Shown here: positions 2,744-19,092 of the stretch, piece by piece
Layout: each line of letters starts with the position of its first letter
Position numbering within the stretch: the first letter of the stretch is position 1
IMG/VR virus record: IMGVR_UViG_3300026382_000058
Coordinates: 1 to 21,880 of that record
DNA length: 21,880 bases
Strand: one strand, 5' to 3'
DNA from: a virus
The notes under the pieces: model-generated
The model's input: only the letters and a program-made list of their open reading frames with translations
What the model was told of the DNA's origin: nothing
Databases searched by the model: none
Made by a program: the position numbers and the translations under genes

Positions 2744-4498
2744 ATGCAAAAATGTAATTATTGTAATCAAGAATACAATAACAGAAAGAAAATGATAAAT
2801 TTTGACAATAAATTGTTTTGTAAAAAAACTTGTCTTCAAAAATATTGTTTAGAACAAATAGAAAATAATTTAGATTTTAATTCAAATTCAAATTTAGATA
2901 AAAAATATGTAGAAAAATTAGTAAATTTGAATAATGGTAAATATATATCAAGAATTAAAATAAATATTAATACAAAATCTATGATAAATAATTTTTTGTG
3001 GAAATATAAAGGAAATAAAGACAAAAAATGTTTAACTTGTGGTAGAAATATTTTACAATCTTATTTGAAAAGAAATGTGTTATATCTTCCTGAAAAAACA
3101 ACATATTGTTCTATGAGTTGTGCATTAAAAAATGAAGAAACACAAAATAAAATCAAAAATACAAAAAAAGAACGATATGGAAACGAAAATTACAATAATA
3201 TGTTAAAAAATAAACAAACTAAAAAAGAACGATATGGAAATGAAAATTACAATAATATGATAAAAAATAAACAAACACTTAAAGAAAAATATAATGTTAC
3301 AAGTAGTTTCCAATTAGAACATGTTGAAGAAAAAAGAAAACAAAGTTGTGTATTAAAATATGGTGTAGAAAGACCATTTCAAAATAAAGAAATTCAAAAT
3401 AAAATTAATAAAAATGTTAGAGAAAAACATTTAATTGAATACAAAGAAAAATATAAAAATATATTAAATAATTTAGAAAATAACTTGAATAGTTATGTTA
3501 AAAAAGGAAGAATAAATGGTACTAAAATATGTGAAGATTTCAATTTACATTACAAAGAACTTTACATTATAAATAAATATTTTAATATTTTTTCTAACTA
3601 TGAAATTTATTTTGAACAAGGAAATTCTAAAATGGAAAAAGAAATAGCAGAATATATTAAATCTATTTATGATGGTAAAATAATAGAAAACGATAGGAAA
3701 ATATTAAATGGTAAAGAATTAGATATTTATATTCCTGATAAAAATTTTGCTATTGAATATGACGGATTATTATATCATTCTTATGGTAAAACATTTCCTA
3801 ATAATGTTGAAATTTTAGATAAAAATTATCATTTAAATAAAACTATACAATGTGAAGAAAAAAACATTCATCTTTTTCATATCTTTGAAAATGAATGGTT
3901 AGATGAAATTAAAAAAGATATTTGGAAATCCAAAATAGCAATTAAATTATATTCTAAAAAATTAAATAAATTAAATGCTAGAAATGGTTATATAAAACCT
4001 ATAGATACATTTGAAACCAAGATTTTTTTAGAACAAAATCATTTACAAGGATATGTTCAATCTAAAATTAAATTAGGATTTTTTATAAAAAATGAATTAC
4101 TTGGAGTAATTACATTTGGTAAAAGTAGATTCAAAAAAGATGAATATGAATTAATAAGATTTGCAACTAGGAAGTATACTATTATAAGAGGTTTATTTTC
4201 TAAATTTATTAAATATTTTAAGAAGAATTATAATATTTCTAATTTAATATCATATGGTAATAGGAGATGGACTTATAAAAATAATGTTTATGATTCTCTA
4301 ATGGAATTAGAATCTATTTCAAATCCAAATTATTTTTATTTTAAGAATGGTGATTTATACAGTAGAATTAAATTCCAAAAACACAAACTTAAAAATATAT
4401 TAGAAAATTTTAACGAAGATAAAACTGAATTAGAAAATGTATTAGATAATAATTATAGAATTATATATGATTGTGGTAATTATAAATACAAGTTATGA
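2744..4498 (+). CDS. Putative free-standing homing endonuclease (paralogue of the intron-encoded one)
   Basis: This 584-residue protein starts at an ATG with an AAAGAGGA site seven bases upstream. Two Cys4 clusters are visible: C4, C7, C26, C30 and C96, C99, C122, C126. A shorter repeat array follows, including two nearly identical 19-residue TKKERYG units, one T-L-K-E-K-Y unit and one KYGVERP unit. The nuclease-like segment has E338-x-D340 and H345 in the same context as the upstream sister. The C-terminal third is close to the sister at both protein and DNA level, down to the final YKYKL and the bases after the stop. It sits between the capsid gene and the next head genes, as an intergenic mobile gene would. 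It is expected to cut capsid-region DNA of related phages and promote its own inheritance; the target site is unknown. Confidence 0.8.
   Translation: MQKCNYCNQEYNNRKKMINFDNKLFCKKTCLQKYCLEQIENNLDFNSNSNLDKKYVEKLVNLNNGKYISRIKININTKSMINNFLWKYKGNKDKKCLTCGRNILQSYLKRNVLYLPEKTTYCSMSCALKNEETQNKIKNTKKERYGNENYNNMLKNKQTKKERYGNENYNNMIKNKQTLKEKYNVTSSFQLEHVEEKRKQSCVLKYGVERPFQNKEIQNKINKNVREKHLIEYKEKYKNILNNLENNLNSYVKKGRINGTKICEDFNLHYKELYIINKYFNIFSNYEIYFEQGNSKMEKEIAEYIKSIYDGKIIENDRKILNGKELDIYIPDKNFAIEYDGLLYHSYGKTFPNNVEILDKNYHLNKTIQCEEKNIHLFHIFENEWLDEIKKDIWKSKIAIKLYSKKLNKLNARNGYIKPIDTFETKIFLEQNHLQGYVQSKIKLGFFIKNELLGVITFGKSRFKKDEYELIRFATRKYTIIRGLFSKFIKYFKKNYNISNLISYGNRRWTYKNNVYDSLMELESISNPNYFYFKNGDLYSRIKFQKHKLKNILENFNEDKTELENVLDNNYRIIYDCGNYKYKL
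3161..3274 (+). repeat. Two tandem 57-bp coding repeats in the second endonuclease
   Basis: Units 3161-3217 and 3218-3274 differ at only a few bases and encode two 19-residue copies beginning TKKERYGNENYNN. The near-identity points to a recent duplication, unlike the diverged 69-bp units of the sister gene. Confidence 0.85.
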
Positions 4499-6055: not shown

Positions 6056-7123
6056 ATGGCAATCAAAGATTTAAGAAAAAAAGATAGTTTATCAGAAAAA
6101 CTTTTAGAAGTTGAAAAAGAAGCATATACAAAAGCATATAAAGAAATTTTAGAAGAAAATATTGTTCTTAAAGAAGAAGAATTTAAAAAAATTATCGAAA
6201 ATGCTAATAAAAAAGCAATTAAAGAATTAGAAGAAACTCATTATGTTTTAGATGAAGATAAAATTGAAGAAGTTGAAGAAGAATTAACTAAAGAAATTTT
6301 ATCAGTTGTTGCAGAAACTTTTAATATTGATTTAGAAACTTTAGCAGAAGCATTAGAAGATGAAATTGAAATGAAAGTTATGGATGAAGAAGAAATCAAA
6401 GAATCTGTTTTAAGTGGAGAAATTGATGGTGTTATTGCAATTCCTGAAGAAAAAGAAGAAGAAGTTGAAGAAAAATTTATTGAAAAATTAAAAACAGGTG
6501 AAATTGAAGGATTATATGTAATTGAAGAAAGTCAACTTCCTGTAATTGAATCTCAAATGAAAGATAAAATTATTGAAAAATTAAAAGAAAATGAAGTTGA
6601 AGGATTATATGTAATTGAAGAAAGTCAACTTCCTGTAATTGAATCTCAAATGAAAGATAAAATTATTAAAGAAACTGAAGAAACATTAAAAGAAGCATTG
6701 AGTGAAGAAACTTATACTGAAATTATGGAAGCAGTAAAAGAAAATGAAAAAATTTATGTTCTTAAAGAAGAAGAATTAGAATTAGTAGAATCTAAAATGA
6801 AAGAAAAATTAGGTATTAAAGAATCTAAAATTGATCAAGAAGAATTAAGACTTATGTTATTAAATGATGAAGGTCTTTATACTATGATTCAAGATGAAGT
6901 TAAAAAACCAGAAGAATTAAAACAAATCGTGTGCGATGCTATTAAAAATGTAGATTGTAAACACATTGATTGGAAATCATTACTTACAAATGTTATAGAT
7001 GAAAGTAAAAAAGAAATTGAAAAAAGTAATAATCTTTTAGAAAAATTGGTTGATGTAGATGTTAAATCTACTGATATTAAAGAAAATCAAGAAGAAAGTA
7101 ATTTTTTAAATAAATTATTATAA
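6056..7123 (+). CDS. Acidic, mostly helical protein with a 31-residue tandem repeat
   Basis: This 355-residue protein is extremely rich in Glu and Lys and is predicted by eye to be long helices or coiled coil. AAAAAGGAAA precedes the ATG. A near-perfect 31-residue repeat covers about residues 142-204 (motif EGLYVIEESQLPVIESQMKD twice), and a related third element occurs as KIYVLKEEELELVESKMKEKL. The repeated pattern (I/V)xxEEExLxxVExxMKxKL recurs through the protein. The C-terminal part contains the only two cysteines, in the phrase IVCDAIKNVDC. A phage scaffold or core protein would look similar, but those usually lie before the capsid gene, so I leave the function open. A terminator-like hairpin follows. 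Confidence 0.7.
   Translation: MAIKDLRKKDSLSEKLLEVEKEAYTKAYKEILEENIVLKEEEFKKIIENANKKAIKELEETHYVLDEDKIEEVEEELTKEILSVVAETFNIDLETLAEALEDEIEMKVMDEEEIKESVLSGEIDGVIAIPEEKEEEVEEKFIEKLKTGEIEGLYVIEESQLPVIESQMKDKIIEKLKENEVEGLYVIEESQLPVIESQMKDKIIKETEETLKEALSEETYTEIMEAVKENEKIYVLKEEELELVESKMKEKLGIKESKIDQEELRLMLLNDEGLYTMIQDEVKKPEELKQIVCDAIKNVDCKHIDWKSLLTNVIDESKKEIEKSNNLLEKLVDVDVKSTDIKENQEESNFLNKLL
6479..6667 (+). repeat. Two tandem 93-bp coding repeats
   Basis: Units start at 6479 and 6572 with a constant 93-base offset. The block from TTGAAGG (6504 and 6597) through AAAATTATT is identical over about 70 bases, which indicates a recent in-frame duplication or recent gene conversion. Confidence 0.85.
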
Positions 7124-10040: not shown

Positions 10041-12599
10041 ATGTCAAGTGCAAAAGTAATTATAAAACAACAAGATAGAAGTTCAATAGTTCCGTCATTA
10101 CCAGGTATTTATGGTGGAATTGTTATTAGAAGTAAAAAAGGTCCTGTTGGTAAACCTACATTGATAACTTCAGAAAATGAATTAATTGATGTATTTGGAG
10201 AACCTGATACAAGATATCCTGAATTTTATTCAGCAATTGTATATTTACAAGAAAGTGATAAATTATGGGTAACAAGAGCAGCGCACGATGATGTTAAATA
10301 TGCTGGTGCATTAGTTAGAAGTAAAGTTAAAGATGTTCCAACAGATGCATTTACACCATTTGATAATGAAATGTTGACTGTAAAACCAATAGAAGGTTTA
10401 ACTGAAAAAGAATTGGAAAGTTTTGTATTTCCTATGTATGAAACTAATAAAGAATATGAATTAGAAAGTTCTAAAATTCTTGAAGATAGTGATAAAGATG
10501 AAATTATAGTTGATACTTTTGATAACTTAAAAATTCAAGATAGAGTTTCATTTAGTGATAAAACTTTAAATGAATTAAATTCTTCAGAAGATAAAGTTGG
10601 AGAAGAAGAACCTACTTATACTGTTACTGATTTATTAACTAAAAAAGTAGATTACGATTTAATTAAAATTGATGATAGTGTTGATATCAATAAAGGTGAT
10701 GAAATTCTTGTTAAGAATTCTGATGGAGATTATGTAAGTTATGACCCACAAGTATTTGCAGGAAGAAGTGCAACATCAAGCGATCAATTATTAGTATTAA
10801 ATGCTGATGCTATGCAAGATGACGATGAAATTAAAATTGGTGATACTGAAACTACTTTCAAAGAAAAAGACAAAGTTACAATTGAAGAAAAATATATTAA
10901 AGTTGATAGTAATGTAGTAGTTACAAAAGACTTAAAAGTTTACAAAGTTATTCAAGCACAATTCGAAGAAAGAGATTCATTCTTAGTAGTTGGAAAAGAC
11001 CCTTCAGTTGATTTTAATAAAATTAGTGTAGGAACAACACCAAGTAAAAATTATGAAAATGCATTTAATGTTATTGTATATTATGATGGAGTTTTAGTAG
11101 AAACTTGGGAAGTAACTAAAGAAGATTTTATTGATGGATTTGGAAAACAAATGTATCTTGAAGATAAAATCAATGAAAAATCAAAATACATTAAAGTTAT
11201 TGATAATAAAAATTTAGAAAAATTACCTTTAATTACAGACCATAGTTATTGGAGACAATTAGAAGAAGATATATTCTTACCTAAAGAAAATTATTTAGCA
11301 GAAGATGTTCTTAAAGACCATATATATGTTACATTAGATAGTGTAGATGAATTAGAAGTTGATGATAGAATTAAATTTGCTTATGATGTTGATGCTAATG
11401 GTGATGTAATTTTAACAAAAGAATATAAAATTGCAGAAATCAATAGTGATGATAAAATAATTAAATTAGATAGAAAATTCGAAGAATATGAAATTGAAAA
11501 AACTTATACTGATTTAGATGGTAATGAAGTAAAAACTCAAGTTTATAAATTTGATAAAGAATATACAGATTTAGATAAAAACATTCTAAATGGAGTAAAA
11601 CATTACACTATTAGTAGATTAGATAAAGTATTTTATAATTATCCATTAGGAAAAATCATATATATTAAAGATATTGCTGGTAAATTATTAGATGCTGGTG
11701 TTAATTTAATGAAAGGTGGTAATGAAGGTAGTTTAATTACAACTAAAGATATGATTGAAGCATTGAATACAATGTTTAATTATGCTGAAACACCTGTTAC
11801 TTTAATAATGAGTGGTGGTTATTATGATACTGCTTATGTTCAAGAAATGAAGAAATTAGTAGATACAACTGATTTATCACACGGATATATTTCAAGTAAT
11901 CCTAATGTTGAAGATACAACAGATTGGAAAAATGGATTAGCAAAAGATGTAGCAAGATTAAATCTTAATACTGAAAAAATGTCATATTTTGCTGGATGGG
12001 TAAAAATTTATGATAGATATAACCAAAAATATGTTTGGGTAGGACCAGATGCTTTTGCAGCAGCAAGTCAAAGTTATACATATAGAAATTATTATATGTG
12101 GTATCCAGCAGCAGGTTGGTTAAGAGGAAGAATTACTGTTATTGATAGTAAAATTAAACCTAATGAAGGTGATAGAGATTTCTTAACTGAAAATAAAATC
12201 AATCCTTTAAAATATACTAAAAAAGATGGATTTGCTATTTGGGGTAATAAAACATTATATTCTAAACCATCACCATTAAACGATAGAAGTGTAGCAATGT
12301 TATTAATTGTTATTAAATATGGTGTTAAAAATATGTTAGAATATAAATTATTTGAATTAAATACTGAAAGAACTTGGACTATTACAGAAAAAGCAATTTT
12401 TGATTTCTTAGCAGATATCAAATCTAAACAAGGTTTATATGATTATCAAGTTGCAATTAAAAGTATTATTACACCTCAAGATATTGATAATAATACAATG
12501 CCAGTATTTATAGGAATTAAACCTACAAGAAGTATTGAACTTATTCCAGTAACATTAGCAATATATAACAATGGTGCTGATATTAAAGTTGAATTATAA
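10041..12599 (+). CDS. Tail sheath protein with large insertion
   Basis: The 852-residue contractile tail sheath. The N-terminal part (SIVPSLPGIYGGIVIRSKKG, GKPTLITSENELIDVFGEP, then LWVTRAA) and the C-terminal domain (LNTERTWTITEKAIFDFLADIKSKQGLYDYQV, then PTRSIELIPVTLAIYN) match the sheath family. The C-terminal region carries the strands that interlock neighbouring subunits. T4 gp18 is about 660 residues, so this one is longer. The extra length lies in about residues 95-550, which are acidic and contain several look-alike beta modules ending in phrases such as KIQDRVSF, INKGDEILV and LEVDDRIKF. Such inserts usually face outward. AAAAGGAAAA precedes the ATG, and a stem-loop follows the stop. 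It polymerises around the tail tube and contracts at infection. Confidence 0.93.
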   Translation: MSSAKVIIKQQDRSSIVPSLPGIYGGIVIRSKKGPVGKPTLITSENELIDVFGEPDTRYPEFYSAIVYLQESDKLWVTRAAHDDVKYAGALVRSKVKDVPTDAFTPFDNEMLTVKPIEGLTEKELESFVFPMYETNKEYELESSKILEDSDKDEIIVDTFDNLKIQDRVSFSDKTLNELNSSEDKVGEEEPTYTVTDLLTKKVDYDLIKIDDSVDINKGDEILVKNSDGDYVSYDPQVFAGRSATSSDQLLVLNADAMQDDDEIKIGDTETTFKEKDKVTIEEKYIKVDSNVVVTKDLKVYKVIQAQFEERDSFLVVGKDPSVDFNKISVGTTPSKNYENAFNVIVYYDGVLVETWEVTKEDFIDGFGKQMYLEDKINEKSKYIKVIDNKNLEKLPLITDHSYWRQLEEDIFLPKENYLAEDVLKDHIYVTLDSVDELEVDDRIKFAYDVDANGDVILTKEYKIAEINSDDKIIKLDRKFEEYEIEKTYTDLDGNEVKTQVYKFDKEYTDLDKNILNGVKHYTISRLDKVFYNYPLGKIIYIKDIAGKLLDAGVNLMKGGNEGSLITTKDMIEALNTMFNYAETPVTLIMSGGYYDTAYVQEMKKLVDTTDLSHGYISSNPNVEDTTDWKNGLAKDVARLNLNTEKMSYFAGWVKIYDRYNQKYVWVGPDAFAAASQSYTYRNYYMWYPAAGWLRGRITVIDSKIKPNEGDRDFLTENKINPLKYTKKDGFAIWGNKTLYSKPSPLNDRSVAMLLIVIKYGVKNMLEYKLFELNTERTWTITEKAIFDFLADIKSKQGLYDYQVAIKSIITPQDIDNNTMPVFIGIKPTRSIELIPVTLAIYNNGADIKVEL

Positions 12600-12628: not shown

Positions 12629-12730
12629 GTTTATATATAAATTTGATATGAAATTAAAAGAATTCAAAAAAGATTCAAATAAAATATTTGAATAAAATAT
12701 TTGAATAAAAAAAATTATAAAGGACAAATA

Positions 12731-13273
12731 ATGAAATTTGATTATAACAGAGTTAGAAAAGCAATGGGTGAAATTCAACAAACTCATCATTGGATAATGA
12801 CTTTTGTAAAATCTCCAAAAGTAGTTGATATTCCAGAAGATATGGAAATTAAATGTACAGGAGTAGGAGTACCAGCAGCAGAAGTTACACATACTGAAGT
12901 TCAAGTTGGTGGTTTTACTTATAACTATGTTGGAAAAGTAAACAAAGCAGGAGAATTAACATTTACATTTCCTGAAGATACAGATGCAACAGTTATGAGT
13001 GCTTTATTCAAATGGTTAGATGCTTATTGGAATGGAGAAGTTAATAATACAACAGGAAAACAAGCATTTACGAAAGAATTACAAGCACAAGTTAGAATTC
13101 AATTACTTGCGCCCGATGATAGTGTAACACAAACTTATGATTTAGTTGATTGTTTACCATCATATGAAGCAGGTGGAGAATTAGGACAAGATGCTGGAGC
13201 ATTTATGCCTACATTAACATTAAAATACAATGATTGGCATTGGTCTGGAGAAAATTCAGGACAAACTTGGTAA
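12731..13273 (+). CDS. Tail tube protein
   Basis: A 180-residue protein of the T4 gp19-like tail tube family by pattern and position directly after the sheath. It starts at the ATG at 12731, because AAAGGA lies just upstream; the in-frame TTG 30 bases earlier has no such site. Features that fit are an N-terminal helix leading to QTHHWIMTFVKSPKV, a strand pair VGGFTYNYVGKVNKAGELTFTFPEDTD, a helix SALFKWLDAYWNG, and a final strand with aromatic residues (LTLKYNDWHWSGE). Hexamers stack to make the DNA channel inside the sheath. Its richer G/C use compared with neighbours suggests high expression. A terminator hairpin overlaps the stop codon. Confidence 0.85.
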   Translation: MKFDYNRVRKAMGEIQQTHHWIMTFVKSPKVVDIPEDMEIKCTGVGVPAAEVTHTEVQVGGFTYNYVGKVNKAGELTFTFPEDTDATVMSALFKWLDAYWNGEVNNTTGKQAFTKELQAQVRIQLLAPDDSVTQTYDLVDCLPSYEAGGELGQDAGAFMPTLTLKYNDWHWSGENSGQTW

Positions 13274-13297
13274 GAAGATTTTTCTTCTTATCTTTTT
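13271..13297 (+). terminator. Intrinsic terminator overlapping the tube stop codon
   Basis: TAAGAAGA (13271-13278) pairs perfectly with TCTTCTTA (13283-13290) around TTTT, followed by TCTTTTT. The stem begins on the TAA stop itself. Confidence 0.7.
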
Positions 13298-13322
13298 AAT
13301 AAAAACATGATAATAAATATAA

Positions 13323-13369
13323 AAAATAAAATGTAAAATAAAATGTAAAATAAAATGTAAAATAAAATA
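13323..13369 (+). repeat. 12-bp tandem A/T repeats upstream of the 13385 gene
   Basis: Three perfect copies of AAAATAAAATGT (13323-13358) and most of a fourth. Each copy carries an ATG-like ATGTAAA that is an immediate start-stop (ATG TAA), so none encodes a peptide. Confidence 0.85.
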
Positions 13370-13384
13370 TATTGAAGGAAAAGT

Positions 13385-13891
13385 ATGAATGCAGCAAATA
13401 ATTCAAGTAAAGTTTTTTCATATAATAATGCTAAAAATTTTGAACCAACTCATACAACACAATGGGTAATATATAGTACATCACATGAAAATCTTAATGT
13501 ATTAGATGGATATTGTCCTATTACTGATTATTCATTTGATTATGAAGTAGAAAATGAATCTTTAATGGTATCAAGTAGATATAACATTGAAACATTTAAG
13601 AAAAGACAAATGCCAAAATCGTTGAGTTTAACTTTTATAGACATGGGATTTAATTTATGTGGTTTTTTTGAAGATTATTGGAAAGACCAAAAAAATGCTA
13701 TTGCTTTTAACGAAATAGATGGAAAAGGCATAACATTTATAATTGAATTATATGATAAAGATAAAACAACGATTAAAAAATATGTCATAACAGGATTTCC
13801 AACAGGTAATATTTCGGTAAGAGGAGATCAAGGTTATTCGTTAAATACTTTTCCTGTTAATTTAACAATAACTTCTTTTTCTACTATGTGA
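13385..13891 (+). CDS. Putative second tail-tube-like protein
   Basis: This 168-residue protein has GAAGGAAAAGT ahead of the ATG. The ending (YVITGFPTGNISVRGDQGYSLNTFPVNLTITSF) resembles the last strands of tube and tube-initiator proteins, in which a subunit strand returns to the hexameric ring. The centre SSRYNIETFKKRQMPKSLSLTFIDM gives a helix-plus-strand outline also seen in tube folds. It directly follows the tube gene. It could be a tube paralogue, a tube-initiating baseplate protein or a tail terminator; the sequence does not decide. Its TGA stop is followed by an ATTAAATAA element. Confidence 0.65.
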   Translation: MNAANNSSKVFSYNNAKNFEPTHTTQWVIYSTSHENLNVLDGYCPITDYSFDYEVENESLMVSSRYNIETFKKRQMPKSLSLTFIDMGFNLCGFFEDYWKDQKNAIAFNEIDGKGITFIIELYDKDKTTIKKYVITGFPTGNISVRGDQGYSLNTFPVNLTITSFSTM

Positions 13892-13906
13892 AAAATAATT
13901 ATAAAA

Positions 13907-13915
13907 ATTAAATAA
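13907..13915 (+). promoter_or_regulatory. ATTAAATAA element upstream of the 13933 gene
   Basis: It sits in AAAAATTAAATAATCATAAAAGGAG, 17 bases before the GTG start, and the AAAAGGAG site begins five bases after it. Confidence 0.4.
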
Positions 13916-13932
13916 TCATAAAAGGAGTATAT

Positions 13933-14850
13933 GTGAATACTAAGAATAGTAATAAAAATAGCACTAAAACTAGTATAAAAATATTTGAAGAAGATGGATT
14001 AAATGTAGAATATTTTGAAATTGATGATTTACCTACTAAATTTAGATATTATGATAATAATAAAGTTTATGTTAGAGGTATGTATATAACTGAAATAGAT
14101 TCAATTTCTAAATTTATAAATAATTTTAGTTCAATTAAAGAAAATATTAATCAATTAGTTCTTATATATAAAAATATGATAAAAGGTATAAATATTTTAG
14201 AATTAGAATACATTGATTTTTTAACTTTATTATCTATAATATCTACGATAACAATAGATAATTTCGGATGGCAAAGTACATTAACTTGTAAAGGAATAAT
14301 TAAAAATCCTAAAATTGATGAATTAAATAATAAAATAATAGAATTGACAAATGAAATGTCTAATCCTGATTTAGAAAAAGCAGAATTCAATAAATTAAAA
14401 GATGTTTTAGAAAAAATAACAGACAAATTAAAAAATATTGAAGAAAATGAAGAATTTGTAGAATGTGGATATCCTATTAATGATACTATAAATTTAAGTG
14501 ATTTTGAATTTGAAGACCCTAAAATAACAAAATTTGAAGAAATAACAATTATGAATGAAAAAATTAAAACTAAACCAATATTAGTAAAAGATATTATTCA
14601 AATGAATGAATTCAAAAGTGATATTGATGTAAAATATTTAGTACTTGCTTCTTTATTAGATATAGATAAACCATTAGAAGAAAAGATAAAATATATTGTT
14701 AAAAATCCAAAATTATCAGAAATCAAAAAATTAGTTGAATTAGAAGAAGATATTGTAATTGGAATAAAACCTATAATAAAAAGATGTAGAAGATGTGGAC
14801 ACAAAAATAAAATTATAGTTAATATAAATGATATAAAGGTATATCCCTAA
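13933..14850 (+). CDS. Probable tail assembly chaperone (zero-frame product), GTG start
   Basis: A 305-residue product starting at GTG 13933, with AAAGGAG five bases upstream. An ATG two bases earlier reads ATG-TGA and cannot be used. The protein is acidic and mainly helical. The C-terminus contains a CxxC pair (C285, C288 in CRRCGHKNK) followed by strand-like IIVNINDIKVYP. T4 gp26-type baseplate/hub chaperones have, as far as I recall, a similar Cys-pair ending. It lies between the tube genes and the tape-measure-like gene, where tail chaperones with programmed frameshifts are encoded. The frame ends at CCC-TAA, and an open +1 frame continues for 46 codons; see the next entry. Expected role: binding the tape measure during tail assembly. 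Not expected in the finished virion. Confidence 0.65.
   Translation: MNTKNSNKNSTKTSIKIFEEDGLNVEYFEIDDLPTKFRYYDNNKVYVRGMYITEIDSISKFINNFSSIKENINQLVLIYKNMIKGINILELEYIDFLTLLSIISTITIDNFGWQSTLTCKGIIKNPKIDELNNKIIELTNEMSNPDLEKAEFNKLKDVLEKITDKLKNIEENEEFVECGYPINDTINLSDFEFEDPKITKFEEITIMNEKIKTKPILVKDIIQMNEFKSDIDVKYLVLASLLDIDKPLEEKIKYIVKNPKLSEIKKLVELEEDIVIGIKPIIKRCRRCGHKNKIIVNINDIKVYP
14842..14850 (+). promoter_or_regulatory. Candidate +1 programmed frameshift site (TAT CCC TAA)
   Basis: The zero frame ends ATA-AAG-GTA-TAT-CCC-TAA. Slipping the Pro-tRNA from CCC to CCT moves the ribosome one base forward over the stop into the open frame AAT-ATA-CAA. CCC next to a stop is a classic +1 shift setting, as in tail-gene frameshifting reported for Listeria phage PSA. 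CCC appears rare in this AT-rich window. The effect is inferred from sequence and position. Confidence 0.6.
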
Positions 14851-14989
14851 TATACAATACAAAAGTATAATTGAAATAAAATATGCATATCAAAAAATAT
14901 TCAACACTAATATTCCCAAAGATATTTTATATTCAGATGTTATTTCACTTTTAGAATATCATAAAGCATTAATAGAAAAACAAAAGTAA
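14846..14989 (+). CDS. +1-frame extension of the tail chaperone
   Basis: From CCT at 14846, 47 codons stay open to TAA at 14987-14989, encoding PNIQYKSIIEIKYAYQ, then KIFNTNIPKDILYSD, then VISLLEYHKALIEKQK. The segment looks like two helices. It has no ATG, GTG or TTG start with a ribosome binding site and none of the A/T-rich intergenic character seen elsewhere. Joined by a +1 shift it gives a 351-residue product, analogous to the long form (G-T) of tail chaperones made in minor amounts. It ends 26 bases before the tape-measure start. Confidence 0.6.
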   Translation, partial: PNIQYKSIIEIKYAYQKIFNTNIPKDILYSDVISLLEYHKALIEKQK

Positions 14990-15015: not shown

Positions 15016-18000
15016 ATGATTAACAGCGAAATAAAGGAATTCCTTAAAGAATATAAAACAAAAACAGAAAAAGAAAATTTTACTTATAATAATATAAATA
15101 CAGTTATTGATGAAATAAAAAACATTTATGAAGAATTGAAGAACGATTCAACCAAAGAATTATCAGATGAAAATAAAAAATTAATAGAAAAATATAATGA
15201 AATAAATTTAACCAATATAAAAATGAATAATCAAGAAAATTTATTAGAAAGTATAAATAAAAATCTTATAAATTTAAATGCTTTACAAAATGATTATATT
15301 GATACTGTAGAAAAAGTAAATAAATCTAAAAATTTAGATAAAAATAATAAAAACGATGTTATAAATATGTTAAATAATTCAAATGTAAAAGACTTAGATA
15401 AAATAACAAATGCTGTTAATACTATGTTAATTGAAAATGAAAGTAACATAAAATTATTATCTACAATTAAAAATGATTTAGATGCAAATGAAAAAATAAA
15501 TATTGTTACAAGAAAAAAATTAGAAAAAGAATTTTTTGTTGTATTAGATGAAATAAAAAATGGTGATATAAATGCATATAAAGATGTTGATAAATTAATA
15601 GAAAAATTTGAAAAAGAAAAAATAGAAATATCTAATAAAGATAGTATTAAAGAAATATTAGATAAACAATTTTTATCTATTATAAATAATGTTTTAAGAA
15701 AAGATATGGAAAACATTATAGAAAAAGACATTAAAACTTTTGAATCTCAATTTGGTAGTATAAAAGAAAAAATACCTAATTTTAATAATTTAATTGAAGA
15801 ATTAAAAAGTGATACAATTTCATATAATGATTTTATATCTAAATTAGAAGAAACAAATGATGAAAGTATTAAAGAATTAACCAATACTTTTAATAATAAC
15901 ATCGATAAATTATTTGAAACTCAAAACACATTTGTTACTGCTTTTGATAAAGAAATCAAAGAATTAACATCAGAACAAAAATCTCAAATATCAGAATTAT
16001 ATAAATCTTTTGAAAAGGGTGATATAACTCAAGAAACATTAATTAAATCTATCAATGATTTAACTAATATCGATAAAGAACAAAAAGATACTACATATAA
16101 ATTAATAGAATTCATAAAAGAAAATAGTACAGATAGTAAAATGGATAATGCATCTAAAATAAAAGAAGAACAACGATATAAACAAAATCAAGAATTAGTG
16201 GAAAATATGGAAAAGACACTTAATAATCTTAATATTAAAGAAAACGAAAGTGTTATATCTAAACTACAACAAAGTTCAGATTTTGAAGATTTAGGACAAA
16301 AATCAGGAGAGATGTTATTAGATCATTTATTTGGAGAAGGTACATTAGTAGAAAAAGTAGGAGAAAAATTAAAATCAGGTTATGATAAAACAAAATCTGC
16401 AATAAATGAAAAATTATTTAGAAGAAATGAAAAACAAACAACAAATAAATTAGACCAAGTTAAAACTTCTATCGATAAACAAACAAAAGAATTGATTAAA
16501 AATGAAAATAAAAATTATAATAAACTCGATAAAGACATTAAAACTAATACTAAAGTTACTAAAACTGAATCAGATCAAACTCAAAGAGAATTATCTTCTT
16601 TAGATACAGGAGATTCAGGATTAAATTTTGGAGATAATAAAAGAAGTAGAAATAAAAGAGGTAAAAATAAAAGACCATCTAAATTATCTAAATTTTTACC
16701 TAAAGGACTAGGTTCTAAAATAGGAAATGTCGCATCTAAAGTAGGTGGTATTGCTTCGAAAATTCCAGGAGTTGACGCAGTAGGTGAAATGTTAGGTGGT
16801 GCTTCAATTTTAGGTGAAGGTGGTATGTTAGCGGGTGCTGGAAGTACTTTGGCAAGTGTAGGTTCTATGGCAATGACAGCATTACCTGTGGTCGCTGGTG
16901 CGGCAGCATTAGGTGCCGCAGCATATGGTTTATATCATTTAAGTATTGACGATGATTCTGAAGAAATAATGGATCAATTAGAAAGTCAAGGTGCCGTTAA
17001 TCATAATTTTTTTGGTGATAGTGAAATCACAGATTGGAGTAAAGTATTAATTTTAGATAAAAAACAATTAGATGCATTAGATAGATACGACGATTGGTCT
17101 GAGTCTGATAAAAAAACTATTGAACAATTAGAAAAAACTGATGATGATGTTAAACATTATTTAGCAGACATGGTTTCTAAAGGAATGGCAGAAAAAACTG
17201 ATGATGGATTTAAATTAAATGCTGGTGGATTGGAAATGTTAAAAAGAACCAATATTTTACAAGATGAAACTAAATTAAAATCATTAGAACGTTTATTAGA
17301 TTCTTCTTCAAAAAAAGAAGTTGATAAATTAGAAAAACCAAAACCTAAAGAAAAAAAGAAAGAAATTAAAGATACTAAACCAAATAAAGATGATAAATCT
17401 AAAGATGATAAATTAAAAGGTGAGTCAAAAGAAGAAAAACCTAAAGGATTTTTAGACAAAGCAGAAGATATGACAAAATCAATACTAGAAAATGCTACTC
17501 CTTTAGGATTAGTAAAAGATGGTGTAGATTCTTTACTAGGAGAAGGTTCAACTGATAAAGCAATTAGTGGTGCTATGGATTTAATTAAAAAAGGAATTAA
17601 ATTAACACCTATTGGTGCGGCATTATCATTATTTTCAAATGATAAATCTAAAGAAATATTTAATTCATTAAAAGATAAAGGAATAGTAGAACATAATTTC
17701 TTTGGAAATAGTGAAGTTAAAGATTGGAATGGTTTATTACAAGTATCAAGTAAAGATTTACAAATATTATCAAAATATGATGATTTTTCAAAAGAAACAC
17801 AATCTAAAATAGAAAATTTAAGTAAAGTAGATGATAAATCTAAATCAATTCTTGCTGAATTAATAAAAGATAAATCAGCAACAAATAATAATGGTATAAT
17901 TAATATTTCTGAAAAAGGTATAGAAAAATTAAAAGAATCTAAAATAGAATTAAAAAGTTTGGAACCAGTTTTAGATAAAAATACTATTAAAAAAATTGAT

Positions 18001-19092
18001 AATGATACTTCTAAGAAAGAAACACCTAATCCTGTTAGTGATGAATTAAAAACAAATGAAAATATATCAGTAAAAGAAACACCTAGTCCAAGTGAAACAC
18101 CTAATCCTGTAGATGATAATTCAAAAAAAGATGAAAATACAATTGTAAAAGAAGAAACATCTAAAACAGAAAAAACTTCTAATGATAATTCAAAAAAAGA
18201 TGAAAGTACATCAGAAATCAAACAAATAGAAAATCAAATTTCAAAATATAAAGAACAATTAGAAATGGTTAAATTGAACCCTAATAAAAAATTAGTTGAT
18301 GTTCAAACAAAATTTATTCAAAATAAAATAAAAACTTTACAAACAAAATTAGAAGATAAAAAAAGTAGTATTAAAAATAATGTTGATGAAACACCTAATC
18401 CTGTTAATGATGAATTAAAAACAAATGTAAACGAAAACACATCAGTAAAAGAAGAAACATCAAATTCAAATGAAACACTTAGTCCTGTAGAAAATAATTC
18501 AAACACAGATACGGATGAAAGTACACCGGAAATTAAACAAATAGAAAATCAAATTTCGAGATACAAAGAACAATTGGAAATGGTTAAATTGAATCCAAAT
18601 AAAAAATTAGTCGATGTTCAAACAAAATTTATTCAAAATAAAATAAAAACTTTACAAACAAAATTAGAAGATAAAAAAAGTAGTATTAAAAATATTAATG
18701 AATTAAAATTAAAAGATATTAATAAAGATTTGCAACCTAAAGAAAGTGGTTTCTTAAATTCAACAATGAAAAAAATTTTTGGAGATACATCTACTAATAT
18801 AGACGATAATGATATGAAACCTGTGGATGATTTAATCCAAAAAGGTGAGACTAATCCTGTTATGATAGCACATTTAACAGGAAAAAATCTAAAAGATGTC
18901 AAAAATCATATGTCTAAAAAAACAACATCAGATGACAGTCCAAAAATAAATACCAAAGAATTAGTTAAAGACAAAAAAGAATCTTCTCCTACTATAATAA
19001 ATAATAGTCAATCAAATGATGGTGGTGTGGTTAAAAAATTAACACCAGATAGAATTTCTGATAAGTCTTTGAGTATAATAACAGCATTTTAA
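15016..19092 (+). CDS. Probable tape measure protein with duplicated modules
   Basis: A 1358-residue protein starting at ATG 15016, with AAAGGTG upstream. Residues 1-550 are mostly coiled coil. A Gly/Ala-rich hydrophobic segment (about 558-643, for example GSTLASVGSMAMTALPVVAGAAALGAAAYGLYHL) may insert into membrane, as tape measures do when DNA is ejected. Two related domains follow at about 648-775 and 878-995, each starting with a HNFFG(D/N)SE motif and D-W. A Lys/Glu/Pro-rich linker region with repeated ETPNPV phrases then includes two copies of a 60-residue charged helix (about 1062-1121 and 1167-1226). Position after the chaperone and before the baseplate hub supports the tape-measure role. 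At 1.5 angstroms per helical residue the tail would be about 200 nm if the whole chain were helical. Baseplate hub or virion protein remain alternatives. Confidence 0.75.
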   Translation: MINSEIKEFLKEYKTKTEKENFTYNNINTVIDEIKNIYEELKNDSTKELSDENKKLIEKYNEINLTNIKMNNQENLLESINKNLINLNALQNDYIDTVEKVNKSKNLDKNNKNDVINMLNNSNVKDLDKITNAVNTMLIENESNIKLLSTIKNDLDANEKINIVTRKKLEKEFFVVLDEIKNGDINAYKDVDKLIEKFEKEKIEISNKDSIKEILDKQFLSIINNVLRKDMENIIEKDIKTFESQFGSIKEKIPNFNNLIEELKSDTISYNDFISKLEETNDESIKELTNTFNNNIDKLFETQNTFVTAFDKEIKELTSEQKSQISELYKSFEKGDITQETLIKSINDLTNIDKEQKDTTYKLIEFIKENSTDSKMDNASKIKEEQRYKQNQELVENMEKTLNNLNIKENESVISKLQQSSDFEDLGQKSGEMLLDHLFGEGTLVEKVGEKLKSGYDKTKSAINEKLFRRNEKQTTNKLDQVKTSIDKQTKELIKNENKNYNKLDKDIKTNTKVTKTESDQTQRELSSLDTGDSGLNFGDNKRSRNKRGKNKRPSKLSKFLPKGLGSKIGNVASKVGGIASKIPGVDAVGEMLGGASILGEGGMLAGAGSTLASVGSMAMTALPVVAGAAALGAAAYGLYHLSIDDDSEEIMDQLESQGAVNHNFFGDSEITDWSKVLILDKKQLDALDRYDDWSESDKKTIEQLEKTDDDVKHYLADMVSKGMAEKTDDGFKLNAGGLEMLKRTNILQDETKLKSLERLLDSSSKKEVDKLEKPKPKEKKKEIKDTKPNKDDKSKDDKLKGESKEEKPKGFLDKAEDMTKSILENATPLGLVKDGVDSLLGEGSTDKAISGAMDLIKKGIKLTPIGAALSLFSNDKSKEIFNSLKDKGIVEHNFFGNSEVKDWNGLLQVSSKDLQILSKYDDFSKETQSKIENLSKVDDKSKSILAELIKDKSATNNNGIINISEKGIEKLKESKIELKSLEPVLDKNTIKKIDNDTSKKETPNPVSDELKTNENISVKETPSPSETPNPVDDNSKKDENTIVKEETSKTEKTSNDNSKKDESTSEIKQIENQISKYKEQLEMVKLNPNKKLVDVQTKFIQNKIKTLQTKLEDKKSSIKNNVDETPNPVNDELKTNVNENTSVKEETSNSNETLSPVENNSNTDTDESTPEIKQIENQISRYKEQLEMVKLNPNKKLVDVQTKFIQNKIKTLQTKLEDKKSSIKNINELKLKDINKDLQPKESGFLNSTMKKIFGDTSTNIDDNDMKPVDDLIQKGETNPVMIAHLTGKNLKDVKNHMSKKTTSDDSPKINTKELVKDKKESSPTIINNSQSNDGGVVKKLTPDRISDKSLSIITAF
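16960..18005 (+). repeat. Diverged duplication of a ~115-residue domain in the tape measure
   Basis: Copy one starts near 16963 (DQLESQGAVNHNFFGDSE) and copy two near 17659 (NSLKDKGIVEHNFFGNSE). Both continue with DW, L-x-L, YDD(W/F)S, IE-L, and a (L/I)LA(D/E) helix, ending in SLE-x-LLD or SLEPVLD. The protein pattern is conserved but the DNA has diverged, so the duplication is old. Confidence 0.75.
18199..18693 (+). repeat. Two copies of a 180-bp coding repeat, 315-bp offset
   Basis: Bases 18199-18378 and 18514-18693 match with few differences and encode the same charged helix (IENQIS-YKEQLEMVKLNPN, then KKLVDVQTKFIQNKIKTLQT). The intervening 135 bases also contain ETPNPV- or ETLSPV-like phrases, so the full repeat period is 105 codons. 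Confidence 0.85.

Follow-up and report, generated by a model that had tools for sequence, protein, structure and literature searches.

What can be discerned from this locus about the number of proteins made from its tail assembly chaperone gene? The window, the whole stretch of 21,880 nucleotides analysed here (a virus record of 21.9 kb, GC 22%), carries a chaperone gene whose first frame ends on a CCC codon and a stop, and the original prediction proposed that some ribosomes pass this point by a programmed +1 frameshift. We put the probability at roughly 0.9 that the chaperone is made in two forms by way of a +1 slip at the CCC-stop, aided by a Shine-Dalgarno (SD)-like element, a reading drawn from comparative sequence analysis. 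The tail module is T4-like, in the order sheath, tube, one more gene, chaperone and tape measure, and the features that bear on the question are the following:

10041-12599, + strand: tail sheath, upstream of the chaperone, fixing the tail-module context
12701-13273, + strand: tail tube, upstream of the chaperone, likewise fixing the context
13922-13927, + strand: Shine-Dalgarno sequence AAGGAG of the chaperone, assigned from sequence, with the GTG start 5 nt downstream
13933-14850, + strand: zero-frame tail assembly chaperone (T4 gp26-like superfamily), GTG start, 305 aa, TAA stop
14785-14806, + strand: C-terminal Zn-ribbon-like knuckle CRRCGHK, conserved in the clade, with invariant Cys columns 285 and 288
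14835-14839, + strand: candidate weak SD-like stimulator AAAGG (AAAGGU), duplex -4.0 kcal/mol, p=0.02 against synonymous expectation
14845-14847, + strand: predicted shift codon CCC, a codon used for 3% of the prolines in the window
14848-14850, + strand: zero-frame stop TAA, T14848 being the base that a +1 shift would skip
14849-14989, + strand: C-terminal extension in the +1 frame, 46 aa, with its TAA stop at 14987-14989
15016-19092, + strand: tape measure protein gene (phrog_1533), directly downstream of the chaperone

Elsewhere in the window, the similarity of an ORF at 2062-2664 to the T4 gp23 major capsid model is limited to the C-terminal portion of that model (165-338 of 376). Flanking this ORF are two related DUF7487 proteins of 570-580 aa (2-1720 and 2744-4498), in which a weak Mom-like stretch was noted. 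Mobile inserts may have interrupted the capsid gene; an Rfam search of this gp23-like/DUF7487 region gave no match. A 355-aa protein at 6056-7123 carries a near-exact internal repeat, with EGLYVIEESQLPVIESQMKDKII occurring twice.

The zero frame of the chaperone ends TAT (14842-14844) CCC (14845-14847) TAA (14848-14850), as the original prediction had it. The +1 frame is open already four codons ahead of the first shifted codon and remains so through 14986, with its stop just ahead of the tape measure gene; of the 47 codons first claimed for this run (14846-14986), the open end at 14986 holds, while the extension proper counts 46 codons (14849-14986). The predicted fusion thus has 351 aa, the length originally given, with 46 residues beyond the shared proline. 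No ATG, GTG or TTG was found in this frame, in agreement with the claim that it lacks a credible start codon. Two other ways past the junction were considered and rejected, readthrough of the zero-frame stop, which would meet a TGA after only 7 codons, and a shift into the -1 frame, which is open for 7 codons only. An AlphaFold2 model of the zero-frame protein, built with three sequences, was poor (pLDDT 61, pTM 0.40).

How much weight can the open frame itself carry? In an order-2 Markov model of the 22% GC window, 47 codons remain open with a probability of 0.009, and as the window offers 17 genes with two frames each, one such run is not rare. At about 1%, the argument that it is unlikely by chance is weaker than had been stated, and with open-run statistics this modest, the case rests on comparison with relatives. 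Searches for close relatives of the window chaperone, with the single protein in viral contigs and in genome contigs, found none. By tblastn we obtained the Cobetia phage Carin-5 and two Yersinia phages, GN1 and YerA41, and scans of IMG/VR added L009/L010, which are identical in sequence, and L017. With the window, these make up the five lineages that we call class A, and their junctions read as follows:

Window: AAG GTA TAT CCC TAA
L009: AAG GTT TAT CCC TAA
L017: CGG GGG TAT CCC TAA C
Carin-5 (L012): AGG GGG TAC CCT TGA C
Yersinia phages (L013): AGG AGT TAT CCC TAG C

In all five lineages the zero frame ends Tyr-Pro-stop and a conserved domain lies in the +1 frame; the stop varies (TAA, TAG, TGA) and always stands directly after the proline codon of the shift. 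Conservation of CCC-TAA and of the frame behind it had been named in advance as supporting evidence, and what the five lineages keep is CCC or CCT, a stop and the downstream frame in the predicted +1 direction. A broken extension frame, an in-frame fusion or widely separated segments, any of which was said to speak against the shift, occur in none of them. Pairwise scores of the extensions exceed those of 2000 shuffles in 10 of 10 lineage pairs (p <= 0.0015), and their summed similarity is 646 in the +1 frame versus 225 and 211 in the other two; conservation of the extension protein among the class A lineages is confined to the +1 frame. Because the extension is conserved across lineages, we judge the two-frame arrangement to be real, and on this level of sequence it is confirmed. 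A chance open frame without a product, which the figure of about 0.009 per run in so AT-rich a window would allow for, is hard to reconcile with a protein sequence conserved in that same frame across lineages, and we give it practically no credence. Similarly, a single indel, be it a sequencing error or the mark of a decayed gene, would give an in-frame fusion the identical appearance in one genome, but five lineages of different sources, isolates included, share this junction although their stop codons differ, which makes this explanation extremely improbable.

The extension could also be a separate small gene at which ribosomes reinitiate after the chaperone stop. The SD-like stretch could serve for this, and in more distant relatives (class B, below) the +1 ORFs are annotated as independent hypothetical genes in several GenBank records; in the annotated phage records of class A, the extension is not marked. 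However, the window frame is devoid of the three start codons, the relatives have no start position in common, and conservation sets in directly after the junction, which renders reinitiation very unlikely compared with a frameshift.

What, then, might promote slippage at this site? The shift codon is rare, CCC making up 1-7% of the proline codons in class A genomes and, among the L009 genes counted, occurring only at the shift. Ahead of it lies an SD-like element that is clear in Carin-5, L017 and the Yersinia phages and weak in the window and L009, where it is shorter (AAAGG or UAAGG), one base closer to the shift codon, and matched in pairing strength by ~10-12% of in-frame positions. When synonymous codons were sampled by each genome's own usage and pairings at least as strong were counted, the element exceeded expectation in every lineage, with p values of 0.021 (window), 0.034 (L009), 0.0067 (L017), 0.0007 (Carin-5) and 0.017 (Yersinia phages); the combined Fisher p of 8e-7 is valid only for independent lineages, an independence that the five class A lineages found, forming one clade, do not have. 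No conserved stimulator in the form of a downstream pseudoknot or hairpin was found in class A (folding z-scores -1.6 to +0.9). A review places stimulatory SD sequences for +1 shifts 3 nt upstream (PMC5009743), and the signal of prfB consists of AGGGGG, 3 nt, CTTT, a stop and C (PMC12421855). L017, Carin-5 and the Yersinia phages (three of five lineages) fit the prfB register, and all three have the C after the stop, which is absent in the window and L009; AGGGGG-TAC-CCT-TGA-C in Carin-5 and CGGGGG-TAT-CCC-TAA-C in L017 match the layout of prfB down to this C.

The class A signal resembles prfB in its NNY_Y shift codon and the stop in the A site and, in the three lineages where the SD-like element is clear, in the position of that element ~3 nt upstream, with a near-identical layout in Carin-5 and L017. 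Unlike prfB, which uses CUU and nearly always TGA, class A has CCC or CCT with TAA, TAG or TGA, near the end of the gene and with no sign of RF2 autoregulation; having neither a consistent UGA nor CUU, it appears from its sequence to work like the prfB cassette and is not a member of it. A second precedent is the +1 shift on CCC-stop, by which SPP1 17.1* is made at CCCUAA (PMC6316719) and which uses CCC_UGA in Listeria tsh (PMC5009743). The window site, a rare CCC followed by a stop with the +1 frame open, belongs by sequence to this class; it shares with SPP1 gp17.1/17.1* and the tsh genes of Listeria phages PSA, A118 and A500 the C-terminal extension of a tail protein, but those are tail tube or shaft proteins, whereas the window encodes a tail chaperone with an SD-like element. 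In the available portions of these sources the SPP1 and Listeria shifts are described without an SD stimulator, and since the window element is weak, slippage could be due to the general weakness of CCC-stop alone, the SD-like element having no role. Against this stand the excess over synonymous expectation in five of five lineages and the prfB register in three; we hold an SD-independent slip to be unlikely, albeit worth serious consideration.

To which family does the chaperone belong? Pfam gave no direct match to the window protein at E<=1, PF12322 included, and a comparison with known G-type families gave neither a Pfam match at E <= 1 nor a PHROG match. G-type chaperone families are known for sharing no detectable sequence similarity, and we therefore file the window chaperone as working like G/GT. 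Profile-profile comparison (hhalign) relates class A to class B, which comprises RHph_TM39, GR7B, GR11A, Ab1-TPeters, EP_H11, Aura, phiLo, 1.031.O and Va2, with an E value of 1e-16 over 214 columns. Members of class B match PF12322 (T4_baseplate, gp26) above its cut-off of 24.5 bits, RHph_TM39 with 29.2 and phiLo with 33.2 bits; through class B profile homology, the window chaperone falls into the T4 gp26 superfamily, which bears out its predicted identity. In Thermus phage phiLo, an IS605 gene beside the tube was rejected as a chaperone candidate, the chaperone lying elsewhere.

The shift proline codons of class A and class B align. Eight of the nine class B phages have the site CCN TTT CGT (CCC in six, CCG in two), with the +1 frame continuing FV..., and Va2 has CCC TAT; UUU_Ynn has been noted as +1-prone in bacteria, and a +1 cassette UCC_UUU_CGU has been described. 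Within class C, a +1 shift is needed in SP-15, LIS04, GXN1 and Mel-JY01 and a -1 shift, at T_TTT_TTC, in Atu_ph07, PA5oct and LR756511. The frame-shifted extensions of class B, class C and the -1 relatives occupy the same place as that of class A; aligned on its own, the class A extension has no significant score against those of class B. Held-out scans, for which the alignments of classes B and C served as queries, gave 84 usable loci with 62 distinct C-termini, 44 of them with T_TTT_TTC and an open -1 frame, though many of these loci are mutually close and do not represent 44 independent events, and 17 with TTT_CGN and an open +1 frame; the remaining one is SP-15 (TTT_CAC), already part of the query. 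A motif with a qualifying frame is present in 61/62 non-redundant scan matches versus 0/249 control ORFs, the controls being other ORFs of the same loci, five of which carry one or the other motif within their final 60 codons. A PDB sequence search with the SP-15 homologue gave no match. Many gp26 homologues from the environment and from jumbo phages, found among L036, L038, L039 and L060-L129, have T_TTT_TTC and a conserved -1 extension. In GenBank, extensions appear as independent overlapping hypothetical genes in L020 (15247-15396), L033 (3321-3497), L034 (3159-3371) and L037 (3195-3431).

What does this imply for T4 itself, which the review, of 2016, names as the exception to G/GT frameshifting, otherwise widely conserved in long-tailed phages (PMC5009743)? 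In gp26 (208 residues) PF12322 spans 1-206, in gp51 (249 residues) 1-201; the gp26 and gp51 sets match with an E value of 3.5e-20 up to about gp51 residue 202, and the strand that carries gene 26 is not the one that carries gene 51. By sequence, the two are paralogues with a C-terminal tail only on gp51, and as PF12322 leaves this tail uncovered, gp51 has the shape of a long form. Class C extensions score against gp51 tails with p about 0.01, a hint that this tail and the frameshift extensions may be homologous. These PF12322 hub assembly chaperones belong to one superfamily with class B and come as a short and a C-terminally tailed form; unlike in the window, there are two separate genes without a frameshift. 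Gp26 and gp51 thus seem to be the short and long forms as two genes, a split that would explain the T4 exception. Since both match one Pfam family, public resources imply, at the least, that the two are related; the G/GT conclusion was not found in the open-access PMC papers searched. Bacillus phage 0305phi8-36 likewise has G/GT roles in two paralogous genes, gp143 and gp144, without a frameshift (PMC2147016), which we liken to the gp26-type family in gene arrangement. In phage NCTB (L027), two consecutive genes at the chaperone position (12841-13617 and 13614-14555), the second longer, look as if two forms had been split; the first is below the PF12322 cut-off. We consider it fairly probable that the gp26 superfamily ancestrally obtained a short and a long chaperone through a frameshift at a single place near the gene end and that its signal was swapped repeatedly, between -1 at U_UUU_UUC, +1 at UUU_CGN and +1 at an SD-assisted CCC-stop converging on prfB, T4 having turned the two forms into the paralogous genes 26 and 51 and being no true exception.

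For the window, the SD-aided slip would proceed as follows. The majority of ribosomes would terminate at UAA and release the short form of 305 aa. Some would be held by the slow stop while the SD-like stretch pairs with the 16S anti-Shine-Dalgarno sequence; peptidyl-tRNA(Pro), the presumed slipping tRNA, would move from CCC to CCU, and AAU would be read next, yielding a 351-aa long form that ends in the 46-aa C-terminal domain. It is plausible that termination efficiency sets the ratio of the two putative forms. From position, family and analogy we infer a G/GT role: as in lambda gpG/gpGT, a single gene immediately ahead of the tape measure would give a short and an extended form by a slip late in the first frame; the lambda shift is -1 at a heptamer, whereas the window has +1 on a stop codon, in a T4 gp26-type protein. 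By the same analogy, binding of the tape measure protein would fall to the part common to both forms, and the extension would recruit or couple parts of the tail tube or hub.

Phages from several groups of hosts carry two-frame chaperone genes of the T4 gp26 superfamily, with three kinds of signal. Class A among them would represent a natural prfB-like +1 cassette outside prfB, occurring with all three stop codons, which could be used to separate the effect of the SD element from the identity of the release factor.
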